Of a DNA stretch of 46,896 bases, positions 35,744 to 39,043 are shown piece after piece. The translations under genes were made by a program, and so were the position numbers. The notes under the pieces were generated by a model that did no database searches, was not told the DNA's origin, and was given only the letters and a program-made list of their open reading frames with translations. The DNA lies in assembly GCA_903945495.1 (NCBI GenBank), contig CAJAVU010000020.1:1-46896 (forward strand), given 5' to 3'. The first letter of the stretch is position 1. Every line of letters begins with the position of its first letter. The stretch comes from an uncultured Flavobacteriales bacterium (lineage in GTDB: Bacteria; Bacteroidota; Bacteroidia; Flavobacteriales_D; Crocinitomicaceae).

Positions 35744-36502
35744 ATGATCATGAAACTGAATACACTATATTTGCTTTTAATTCTTGTTTTGTCACTCGTG
35801 TCATGCAAGGATGACGTTGTTGAAGAGCCAATTCCAGAATTAGATTACCTCAAAATTACCCTGCAACCTGTTCTTGGAGCCAATGATTTGGCTTTAAATG
35901 ATACAATCACGACGGTTGAAGGTTATAAGGTGCAATACACCGATTTGAAATGTTATTTTTCAGATGTAAAAAACGGTGGAAATACATTGGCGCAAGCAGG
36001 TTTGTTCGATTACAAACAGAACGGTACATTTTTATTGCAGGCAGTTGGAAAGAAAGGAGATTATTCATCTTTGACGGCTTATTTAGGAGTTGATCCAGCA
36101 GTGAATCATAATGATCCATCTGCATTCCCAAACAGCAGCCCGTTAAACATTGCGAATGCAAATGACATGCATTGGGATTGGAATCCAGGTTATATTTTTA
36201 TAAAAGTTGAGGCGAAAGTTGATACCATTGTTGACGGAGTGAACAATTTAGATCATTTTGTTGTTTTGCACGTTGGAACAGATGCCTTTATCCAAAGCTT
36301 GAGTTTTAGCTCCTTGAATTGGCAAACAGTTACAGACCATCTTGCGGTTTTACCGTTAAAACTAGATATGGAAAAGTTCTTACAGAATGGTGCTCAAACA
36401 ATTGATTTAAAAACGGAGCACACGACACATTCTGCTGCTGGACAAGAAGCATTGAGCATTAAAGTTATTCAGAATTTCAAGGATGCAATAAGTACCTATT
36501 AA
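35744..36502 (+). CDS. MbnP-like lipoprotein (kynurenine copper-site family)
   Basis: 252 residues, or 250 if the second Met at 35750 is used. A lipoprotein signal peptide ends in LVSC with the lipidated Cys21, followed by KDDVVEE. The mature part matches the MbnP family: YLKITLQPVLGANDLALNDT, YKVQYTDLKCYFSDVK, and the strongly conserved-looking MHWDWNPGYIFIKVEAK with Trp144 and Trp146, then LDHFVVLHVG. In characterised MbnP, a periplasmic copper-binding protein first found in methanobactin operons, a Trp is converted to kynurenine by the diheme enzyme MbnH and forms part of the copper site. The next gene is an MbnH-like enzyme starting at the very next base. Which Trp is modified here is inference. 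No methanobactin genes are in view. Confidence 0.83.
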   Translation: MIMKLNTLYLLLILVLSLVSCKDDVVEEPIPELDYLKITLQPVLGANDLALNDTITTVEGYKVQYTDLKCYFSDVKNGGNTLAQAGLFDYKQNGTFLLQAVGKKGDYSSLTAYLGVDPAVNHNDPSAFPNSSPLNIANANDMHWDWNPGYIFIKVEAKVDTIVDGVNNLDHFVVLHVGTDAFIQSLSFSSLNWQTVTDHLAVLPLKLDMEKFLQNGAQTIDLKTEHTTHSAAGQEALSIKVIQNFKDAISTY

Positions 36503-37576
36503 ATGAAATATCTTTTCTTCTTATTTATTGGTGTTGTAATTTTTCTCTCTTGTAAAAAGGATAAAACAGGTTATTCACCCGAGCCGTATGTTTTGGAAAT
36601 ACCATCGCATTTTCCTGACATGATTATTCCGGAAGATAATCCAATGACCGTTGAAGGTGTTTTTTTAGGGAGAAAGTTGTTTTATGAAAAGCAGCTGAGT
36701 GGTAACAATACTATGTCATGCGGGGCTTGTCATTCGCCTTCAAGTTCTTTTTCAGATCCGAATCAATTTTCAACTGGTATTGACGGGGTTCAAGGAACTC
36801 GGAATTCAATGGCCTTGATCAATCTTGGCTGGCAAAATTTCTTTTTTTGGGATGGGCGATCGCAAACATTAGAACAGCAAATTCTTGAACCTGTTCCAAA
36901 TCCAATTGAAATGCATCAATCTTGGACAGATGCTGTTGCCAAATTGAATGCTAGTCAAGACTATAAAAATTTGTTTTACAAGGCCTTTGGAACTACAAAA
37001 ATTGATTCAACGTTGGTGTCAAAAGCAATTGCTCAATTTTTACGAACAATGATTTCGGGTTCTTCAAAATATGATGTTATGTATAAATACATTAATGGAA
37101 TCAGTTTATCAGCACAAGATCAAGTAACATTGGCAACTGTTTCAAATGATGAATGGGCAGGTTATGATTTATTTAAAAGTTTAAATGGTGCAGATTGTTT
37201 TCATTGCCACAACGGAGCATTAATGCAAGTCAGTAAATTTAGTAACAACGGACTAGATTTAACGTTTACTGATATAGGAAGAGGTGCAATAACAGGATTA
37301 GCATCGGATAATGGGAGATTTAAAGTTCCAACTTTGCGTAACATTGCACTTTCAGGGCCGTATATGCATGACGGAAGGTTTTCAACCTTAGATCAAGTTA
37401 TAGAACATTATTCGACAGGAATTAACCAAAGTTCGACAATTGATCCATTGATTGAATATGCATTTCAAGGCGGAGTGCAATTGGATAGCCAAGAGAAAAA
37501 TCAACTAAAGCAGTTTTTGCTTACGTTGACTGATTATAAATTTATTAATAATCCGGATTTTCGAGATCCGAATTAA
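36503..37576 (+). CDS. MbnH-like diheme cytochrome c peroxidase family lipoprotein
   Basis: 357 residues. The N-terminus MKYLFFLFIGVVIFLSCKKD is a lipoprotein signal with Cys17. Two c-type heme motifs are present: CGACH (Cys73, Cys76, His77) and CFHCH (Cys232, Cys235, His236). Other bacterial cytochrome c peroxidase/MauG features include GRKLFYEKQLSGNNTMSCG, RNSMALINLGWQNFFFWDGR and the late KVPTLRNIALSGPYMHDGRF. Family members use a high-valent diheme state either to reduce peroxide or to oxidise tryptophans in a partner protein (MauG, MbnH). Zero-base spacing to the mbnP-like gene strongly favours the MbnH role. Anchored at the periplasmic membrane face. Confidence 0.9.
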   Translation: MKYLFFLFIGVVIFLSCKKDKTGYSPEPYVLEIPSHFPDMIIPEDNPMTVEGVFLGRKLFYEKQLSGNNTMSCGACHSPSSSFSDPNQFSTGIDGVQGTRNSMALINLGWQNFFFWDGRSQTLEQQILEPVPNPIEMHQSWTDAVAKLNASQDYKNLFYKAFGTTKIDSTLVSKAIAQFLRTMISGSSKYDVMYKYINGISLSAQDQVTLATVSNDEWAGYDLFKSLNGADCFHCHNGALMQVSKFSNNGLDLTFTDIGRGAITGLASDNGRFKVPTLRNIALSGPYMHDGRFSTLDQVIEHYSTGINQSSTIDPLIEYAFQGGVQLDSQEKNQLKQFLLTLTDYKFINNPDFRDPN

Positions 37577-37621: not shown

Positions 37622-39043
37622 ATGATTGACGAAAGAAGATTAACAACAGAGGAAAAAGCACTTAAAATTAACTTGACATCTGATATTTATGGATGTTTCG
37701 CTGAGATTGGTGCTGGGCAAGAGGTGGCAGCTAACTTTTTCAAGGCAGGAGGTAGCTCGGGGACAATCGCTTACACACAATCAGCTTATGACATGAAAGT
37801 GTCTGATTCTATGTACGGTGAAGCATCACGTTATGTTTGCGAAGAGCGTCTGCTAACGATGCTTGGAACGGAATACGAAACATTAAAATACCGTTTACCA
37901 AATAAATACAAAGAAGCGAGATTCTTTGCTTTTTGTAATACAGTTGAATCGTTAAATTACCACAAAACAAATCAAGGTCAAGGTTGGGTTGGAATCCGTT
38001 TTCAATTGGATTTGGAAGCAGAACCAAATGACGTGATTTTGCATATCAAAATGCACGATAATAGTCACAAAGCACAGCAAGAGGCCTTAGGTATTTTAGG
38101 TGTAAATTTAGTGCATGCCTGTTATTTTCACCATGACGATTTAAATGAATTTTTGACAAGTTTAGTTCATCGCCTTCCACGTGATCGAATGGAAATAGAT
38201 ATGATGCGCGTATCAGGGCCAGATATGGACAATACTGATAACCGAATTATAGCATTGAATTTGGTAAAAAGAGGAATCACAGACGCAACCATGTTTGATT
38301 TGTCAGGACACGTTTTACAACCTGCAACGGCTTTATATAAAAAGAACATTTTGTTGATGCGAGGCCGTTTTAGACCAGTGACAAAAGTGCACATCGACAT
38401 GATTGAAGCGGGTAAAAAACAATTCTTGAAAGAACCTGGAGTTGATGATGATCATTTAAGTGTCATTTTCGAATTGACCTTAAAAGATTTAACAGCAGAC
38501 GGTAAAATCTCTGATAAAGATTTTGTTGATCGCGCTGAACTGCTTGGATCTCTGGGGTATACAGTAATGATTTCAAACTATTTGAAACATTATAAAATGG
38601 TTGACTATTTAGCGACCATTGCACGCGGAAAACGAATGGGATTAATTCTAGGAGTTTACAATCTTCACACAATTTTTGACGAACGATATTACGATAATTT
38701 GCCAGGAGGCTTACTTGAGGCATTCGGTAGAGGATTTGGTCACGATGTAAAAATGTTTGTTTATCCAGCAATCAATGTAGAGGATGGAGAGATTTACGGT
38801 TTGCACAATGTGAAAATTCAGCAACACCTTCATGGCTTATTGACGTATTTAAAAGACAATAATAAAATGGAAGCGATTGAAAATTATGATCAACGCTTGC
38901 TGCATATTATGTCCGATGACGTTCTTTCAAAAATCAAAGCTGGGGCTTCAAGTTGGGAAGATGACGTACCGTATGAGGTTGTTAAAGCAATTAAGTATTT
39001 CGAACTTTTTGGATACCACGAAGTAAAAGCAACAGCACTTTAA
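37622..39043 (+). CDS. Conserved protein with degenerate nucleotidyltransferase-like motif
   Basis: 473 residues, no signal peptide or membrane segment, probably cytosolic. I recognise it as a widely conserved-looking protein but not with a proven function. The N-terminal half reads TSDIYGCFAEIGAGQEVAAN, later FFAFCNTVESLNYHKTNQGQ and ALGILGVNLVHACYFHHDDL. At 247-257 is RGRFRPVTKVH, which resembles the GRFQPxHxGH start motif of NadM/NadR-type adenylyltransferases but with TKVH where HxGH is expected. The C-terminal half has DRAELLGSLGYTVMISNYLK and LPGGLLEAFGRGFGHDVKMF. A nicotinate-nucleotide adenylyltransferase label would be a guess from this motif. It is followed after 3 nt by a WYL regulator. 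Confidence 0.75.
   Translation: MIDERRLTTEEKALKINLTSDIYGCFAEIGAGQEVAANFFKAGGSSGTIAYTQSAYDMKVSDSMYGEASRYVCEERLLTMLGTEYETLKYRLPNKYKEARFFAFCNTVESLNYHKTNQGQGWVGIRFQLDLEAEPNDVILHIKMHDNSHKAQQEALGILGVNLVHACYFHHDDLNEFLTSLVHRLPRDRMEIDMMRVSGPDMDNTDNRIIALNLVKRGITDATMFDLSGHVLQPATALYKKNILLMRGRFRPVTKVHIDMIEAGKKQFLKEPGVDDDHLSVIFELTLKDLTADGKISDKDFVDRAELLGSLGYTVMISNYLKHYKMVDYLATIARGKRMGLILGVYNLHTIFDERYYDNLPGGLLEAFGRGFGHDVKMFVYPAINVEDGEIYGLHNVKIQQHLHGLLTYLKDNNKMEAIENYDQRLLHIMSDDVLSKIKAGASSWEDDVPYEVVKAIKYFELFGYHEVKATAL

Follow-up and report, generated by a model that had tools for sequence, protein, structure and literature searches.

Organization of the locus

The window, as we call the whole stretch of 46,896 nucleotides analysed here, carries on its forward strand two directly adjoining genes: an mbnP-like gene at positions 35744-36502, coding for a predicted lipoprotein of 252 amino acids, and an mbnH-like di-haem gene at positions 36503-37576, coding for a predicted lipoprotein of 357 amino acids. 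As a preliminary description of this DNA had stated, the stop codon of the former (36500-36502) directly adjoins the ATG of the latter at 36503. Translation of mbnP is likelier to start at the ATG at 35750, two codons 3' of 35744, because it is M3, and not M1, that hardly varies among the aligned orthologues. Scans for sigma-70 promoters and terminators gave no signal above shuffle level.

Both proteins had been described as lipoproteins, and a lipobox-like sequence indeed closes both N-termini (LVSC in MbnP, FLSC in the enzyme), its Cys being invariant in the alignments (C21 in 18 MbnP sequences, C17 in 41 enzymes), but a stricter lipobox pattern is not universal among orthologues, being satisfied by 49/74 complete MbnP and 46/76 complete enzyme sequences. 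We infer export and lipid anchoring for both proteins. The stretch CKDD stands after the lipobox of MbnP, and CK(D/E)(D/E) occurs in 18/74 complete MbnP orthologues; the surface-export signal optimum in Capnocytophaga, described as C-X-K-(D/E)2-X (PMC5080379), differs from it.

Identity of the MbnP protein

The first gene product had been taken to be MbnP-like, and the ORF at 35744-36502 matches the MbnP family PF20243 at 9e-22 (78.3 bits, cut-off 27), while falling short of the equivalog level of TIGR04052, MbnP_like_WxW (36.1 bits against a curated cut-off of 140). An AlphaFold model of the protein, computed from 60 window and orthologue sequences (mean pLDDT 93.4), had as its sole strong match in the PDB the MbnP of Methylosinus trichosporium, 7l6g (Foldseek 3e-06; VIA Z 16.2 over 196 residues, rmsd 3.0), the next entry reaching Z 4.5. 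The fold search was decisive here, because phmmer with the single MbnP sequence found no match in the PDB up to E 1 and a profile of the six MbnP paralogues of the genome ranked 7l6g, at a mere E 0.06, behind an unrelated chain (0.055).

The HWDWNPGY segment pointed out in the preliminary description is present, with Trp144 at 36173-36175 and Trp146 at 36179-36181. It belongs to an MHWDW motif (36167-36181, forward strand) comprising Met142, Trp144, which is the predicted kynurenine site, and Trp146. In the profile alignment (E 0.06), M142-x-W144-x-W146..G149 faces M-A-W-N-W..G of 7l6g, and His176 (36269-36271, forward strand), a candidate copper ligand, faces a His of 7l6g within VHVG. His176 is invariant in the six paralogues and in 60 aligned orthologues, and the residues invariant across the six paralogues are Y71, G115, N121, M142, W144, G149, Y150 and H176; among the aligned orthologues, Trp146 and Tyr150 are conserved to the same degree as Trp144. 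The four-Cys motif in the PDB molecule name of 7l6g is absent from the window MbnP, whose only Cys are C21, in the lipobox, and C70. In the Methylosinus protein, MbnH is said, in a 2021 PNAS report, to turn the first Trp of WxW into kynurenine for Cu(I) binding.

Identity of the di-haem enzyme

The ORF at 36503-37576 belongs to PF03150, CCP_MauG (1e-53), and its top NCBIfam match is TIGR04039, MbnH, at 251 bits, under the curated equivalog cut-off of 362.85. Since both the TIGR04052 and the TIGR04039 scores lie under their cut-offs, the two proteins fall within the broad families yet diverge from the curated narrow ones. The closest PDB sequence by phmmer is Methylosinus MbnH, 6e1c (5.6e-46), which is also the best match of a weak enzyme model (pLDDT 70) at Z 22.9, with CcP-type entries at up to 19.9 and MauG at up to 17.6.

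Both CxxCH motifs ascribed to the enzyme were recovered on the forward strand, CGACH (residues 73-77) at 36719-36733 and CFHCH (residues 232-236) at 37196-37210, and their residues C73, C76, H77, C232, C235 and H236 are conserved in 131/131 aligned enzymes of the order-level set, as is Glu136 of a PIEM motif (36908-36910, forward strand). The enzymes of the relatives were called with a profile built from the genome's own copies, and 135/136 have two CxxCH motifs. Trp116 (36848-36850, forward strand), the probable inter-haem Trp, which we take to be at the position of CcP Trp94, is invariant in 41 aligned orthologues and present in 96/131 order-level enzymes. Tyr303 (37409-37411, forward strand) aligns with a Tyr of 6e1c and with a Met of 1iqc, and stands in the place of the distal Tyr ligand of MauG and MbnH. 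This position is Tyr in 73/73 orthologous enzymes and, among the 131 full-length relatives, is occupied by Y in 121, F in 7, K in 2, L in 1 and M in none. A Tyr that is never replaced by Met sets the enzyme apart from peroxidases of the 1iqc type. A reservation comes from BthA, a di-haem peroxidase by its PDB title, which has a Tyr463 that was mutated to Met; this Tyr appears to occupy the same position as Tyr303, so that a Tyr ligand would be compatible with peroxidase activity.

Two identities were rejected for the enzyme: a plain CcP, as Met does not occur at the Tyr303 position and the best match is MbnH, and a MauG of the mau cluster, as the TIGR03791 score of 162 bits is far under the cut-off of 443.85.

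Conservation of the pair outside methanobactin clusters

Neither methanobactin nor transporter nor TonB genes had been seen alongside the pair, and a Pfam check of five flanking genes, coding for a UvrD-type helicase, a 473-aa protein, a WYL regulator, a histidine kinase and urocanase, found none either; likewise, these neighbours include no copper gene. The gene for the 473-aa protein (37622-39043, forward strand) lies directly downstream of the pair and has no Pfam or NCBIfam match. The MbnB family PF05114 gave no match at E 0.001 in the whole genome, which is 99.99% complete, and the possibility of a methanobactin operon remnant was rejected on this ground.

Orthologous loci were taken as the best 80 of 200 relatives. 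Because the search patterns included the MxWxW or the GYIF stretch, conservation of the motif in these 80 loci is partly built in; the pairing is not. Most of them belong to metagenome-assembled genomes labelled Crocinitomicaceae, Fluviicola, Flavobacteriales or Flavobacteriia, the named strains including Fluviicola chungangensis and two Brumimicrobium; some have other labels from Bacteroidota (Chitinophaga, Chryseobacterium), and one has the label Glaciecola. Judging by these labels, the window probably comes from Crocinitomicaceae. In 77/77 testable orthologous loci (the remaining 3 end at contig ends) mbnP is followed by an MbnH-like gene, in 73 of them within 25 bp. As judged by sequence motifs, a divergent UvrD-type helicase precedes the pair in 62/69 testable loci and the gene for the 473-aa protein follows it in 65/72. 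The pair is therefore an old orthologous chromosomal unit among housekeeping-type genes, outside any methanobactin cluster.

The association extends to MbnP genes in general among relatives of the same order, in loci that represent most of the matches listed in a survey of 59 genomes and were called with a profile built from the genome's own copies. With 9/124 MbnPs cut by contig ends set aside, an MbnH-like gene lies no more than 1.3 kb from 111/115 testable MbnPs, and in 110 cases it is downstream and on the same strand, which argues that the pairing is not due to chance. MbnP occurs in 57/59 of the sampled relatives, with at most five copies among the matches listed, and in 19/79 other genomes of a phylum sample, with at most two copies among the matches listed. 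The lack of methanobactin genes beside the pair thus holds for the tested neighbours and, as regards the MbnB family, for the genome, but standing alone does not make the pair unusual, with six such pairs in this genome and MbnP in nearly all the sampled relatives. Indeed, MbnP/MbnH pairs far beyond methanobactin producers were described already in 2013 (PMC3621798). A side observation concerns CP034120.1 (L231), a chromosome labelled Glaciecola amylolytica, a gammaproteobacterial name, in which the pair lies in the gene order of Fluviicola chungangensis (L218); the name may be wrong and the genome one of Bacteroidota.

Six pairs in one genome

The genome, of 3.64 Mb, codes for six MbnP proteins over the PF20243 cut-off, a family without a match in 14 control genomes. 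It also has eight matches to the MbnH model, all under the model cut-off, and at E 0.001 the model also matches di-haem proteins in 2/14 control genomes; for this reason, "MbnH-like" in our counts denotes this di-haem type and not proven MbnH. An MbnH-like gene lies directly downstream of mbnP in 6/6 cases, and of the remaining two enzymes one adjoins the pair on C49 and the other, on C47, is alone. Identity between the window copy and the other five MbnPs is only 20-24%. WxW is present in 5/6 paralogues, the copy on C87 having MAWPVSM instead.

Three of the eight MbnH-like enzymes (L018:8503-9552, minus strand; L019:3956-4951 and L017:8587-9576, both plus strand) lack the probable inter-haem Trp, namely the second copy on C49 (F), that on C3 (F) and that on C87, which has Arg at this position and in which nearby loops are absent. 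Two of the MbnP paralogues (L018:6430-7395 and L019:2973-3956, both plus strand) end in a type IX secretion tail of family PF18962, which in the second scores slightly under the cut-off.

None of the tested neighbours of the window pair points to copper, but neighbours of paralogous pairs do. Near the C49 pair, on the opposite strand, lie genes for a multicopper oxidase bearing a type IX secretion tail, an HMA protein (just above the cut-off) and an HMBD protein. The C38 pair is preceded by genes for an ECF sigma factor and for a protein that matches Metal_resist below the threshold, and is followed by one for a YHYH protein. MbnPH-like genes have also been reported in copper-linked cruR operons (PMC9426467). 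The presence of five further, diverged pairs suggests several envelope copper proteins matured by dedicated enzymes.

Relationship between the WxW motif and the partner enzyme

Among readable MbnPs of the order, WxW was found in 115/116 paired proteins, a set that includes the genome's own six, versus 1/4 unpaired ones (Fisher p 6e-5, kinship ignored; two of the unpaired, L145 and L168, look like one clade). Under a narrower pairing rule the figures were 107/109 and 1/4 (p 2e-4, kinship likewise ignored). The link between motif and partner is nevertheless imperfect and follows no simple rule. L110 is unpaired yet keeps WxW, without the Met, and L116 is unpaired and keeps one Trp. Each of the four genomes whose MbnP is unpaired does have a match to the MbnH model elsewhere, the sole one in G026 being an open frame of 645 aa and possibly a protein of another type. 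With the WxW-less L145 MbnP as a query, 9/296 phylum genomes were matched, and all nine hits were ordinary WxW MbnPs with an MbnH-like gene. In these loci combined with those of the phylum sample (4/37 rows being duplicates), every MbnP has a same-strand MbnH-like gene, and 5/33 distinct proteins are without WxW, in the place of which they have WPxxM, WxxW or no Trp.

A W(x)(W)P..M.GGGYH-type motif, from which the second Trp may be absent, recurs in several MbnPs (L017:7832-8590, plus strand, and those of L279, L281, L086, L117 and L116) and possibly represents an alternative copper site. A Cys-rich protein of the CHCxRNLTPAGVMISH or CDxCxVYL type adjoins or lies close to the unpaired MbnP in 4/4 cases (L145:7490-8557, L168:7327-8388 and L110:7718-8677, minus strand; L116:5666-6601, plus strand); the two that were searched have no Pfam or NCBIfam match. 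Since the 18-member L145 cluster of such proteins adjoins other MbnPs too, mostly directly upstream, it is not specific to the unpaired ones.

Predicted function and alternative explanations

Homology at the level of sequence, profile or predicted fold, together with the MxWxW motif, His176, the haem motifs, the MauG-type Tyr and the conserved adjacency and order, identifies the window genes as a true MbnP/MbnH pair, and the family assignment of the preliminary description stands. Going by these sequence features, we consider it probable that, once MbnP is exported, its Trp144 is converted to kynurenine by MbnH, which completes a Cu(I) site for copper acquisition or buffering. According to this model, both proteins would be exported and lipid-anchored, the di-haem enzyme would be converted by peroxide or oxygen to a two-electron-oxidised, bis-Fe(IV)-like state, and in this state it would pull electrons from Trp144. 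The resulting kynurenine, with His176 and probably Met142, would form a high-affinity Cu(I) site, through which the matured MbnP may acquire, buffer or pass on copper at the cell envelope.

The closest known system is the MbnP/MbnH pair of Methylosinus trichosporium OB3b (7l6g and 6e1c), a recognised pair of neighbours (PMC3621798). It has in common with the window pair both folds, MxWxW, the conserved His, the two CxxCH motifs and the Tyr at the ligand position, at identities of 16% for MbnP and 34% for MbnH. In contrast to the OB3b proteins, those of the window are predicted lipoproteins without the four-Cys motif, encoded among housekeeping-type genes and not in a methanobactin operon. The copper proteins MopE/SACCP and CorA/CorB of methanotrophs, in which kynurenine is made from Trp, are likewise encoded beside a di-haem CCP-type protein (PMC3912023). 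In the MopE/CorA-type site, as given in the same source, copper is bound with two His, water and Kyn, whereas the candidate ligands in the window protein are Kyn144, H176 and probably M142; neither MopE/SACCP nor CorA appears among the top 50 matches listed for the MbnP model in the fold searches. MauG, which acts in TTQ biosynthesis of methylamine dehydrogenase, is a further di-haem enzyme with Trp in another protein as the target of its oxidation, and Tyr294, named in a PDB title, is its haem ligand; its substrate protein differs from MbnP. Bacterial cytochrome c peroxidases such as Nitrosomonas 1iqc share the fold and the haem motifs, have Met at the Tyr303 position in the case of 1iqc, and have, to our knowledge, no MbnP partner.

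Kynurenine is not the only conceivable product. The enzyme could modify Trp144 or Trp146 by hydroxylation, to N-formylkynurenine or by a crosslink to the other Trp or to Tyr150, and the site might then bind another metal or have a redox role. Its relative MauG makes a two-Trp crosslink (PMC3912023), Trp146 and Tyr150 are as conserved as the presumed target, and paired MbnPs with the variant motifs WPxxM and WxxW exist; we nevertheless regard such a product as unlikely, given that the nearest relatives by both sequence and fold are MbnP and MbnH, and not MauG, and that the Trp is accompanied by a conserved His176 and Met142. It would be quite improbable that the enzyme is an ordinary periplasmic peroxidase that detoxifies H2O2, with MbnP an independent metal-binding lipoprotein that is merely co-transcribed. 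Although PF03150 takes in bacterial CcPs, CcP-type entries match the enzyme model with Z up to 19.9 and BthA appears to join Tyr with a peroxidase name, this explanation has to contend with the tight, conserved adjacency in a fixed order, with Tyr303 and the absence of Met from this position in all 131 enzymes, with the absence of WxW from 3/4 unpaired MbnPs and with MbnH being the best match by sequence and fold.

The pair might also be a functional relic, in which the orthologues are kept while MbnP, no longer handling copper, has some structural role in the envelope. The tested neighbours include no copper genes, and MbnP diverges faster than the enzyme of the same locus, with identities of, for instance, 79 versus 92% in L147, 47 versus 68% in L132 and 38 versus 60% in L131. 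Set against this, the motif residues (partly through the search patterns) and the haem ligands are invariant in the aligned orthologues, and the flanking genes are kept in 62/69 and 65/72 loci, so that we give a relic very little credence.

Since earlier publications describe MbnP/MbnH pairs that lie outside methanobactin operons, the window pair is of a recognised kind; less expected are the presence of six pairs in a single genome and the two-enzyme version found in relatives. Among the matches listed in literature searches on MbnP, MbnH, MauG, kynurenine and copper, there was no report of MbnP in Flavobacteriales. If maturation to kynurenine holds for the window pair, a group of Bacteroidota would routinely carry out the Trp-to-kynurenine conversion known from copper proteins of methanotrophs. 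The pair, without methanobactin genes, would then allow the role of MbnP alone to be studied cleanly, and the six natural paralogues with their motif and enzyme variants constitute a built-in series for the residues that the enzyme needs.

Tandem enzymes in relatives

Two tandem MbnH-like genes lie beside mbnP in 21 loci of same-order relatives (L078, L085, L087, L088, L092, L093, L096, L098-L102, L105, L106, L108, L111, L112, L120, L124, L128 and L154). In 20/21 of these, exactly one copy is without the probable inter-haem Trp corresponding to window W116, which is replaced by R, M, A, K, S or V. The Trp-less copy is the MbnP-proximal one in 19 loci, in nine of which it also lacks Tyr303. Both haem motifs are retained in the Trp-less copies, which suggests a heterodimer of a catalytic and a non-catalytic enzyme.

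A wider reading, possible but on balance doubtful, is that Flavobacteriales have a multi-copy kynurenine-copper system with up to six MbnPs per cell, of which some are lipid-anchored and others carry a type IX tail. Each would have a di-haem tryptophan oxidase to itself, in many cases an obligate heterodimer of a canonical enzyme and a co-encoded partner that no longer has the inter-haem Trp. Were it true, kynurenine copper sites would be a general envelope copper strategy of the order and not a methanotroph speciality. Replacement of the probable inter-haem Trp also occurs where the enzyme is single: for MbnPs of at least 300 aa in the order-level set that have one enzyme, the position of Trp116 is F or Y in 11/14 readable cases.
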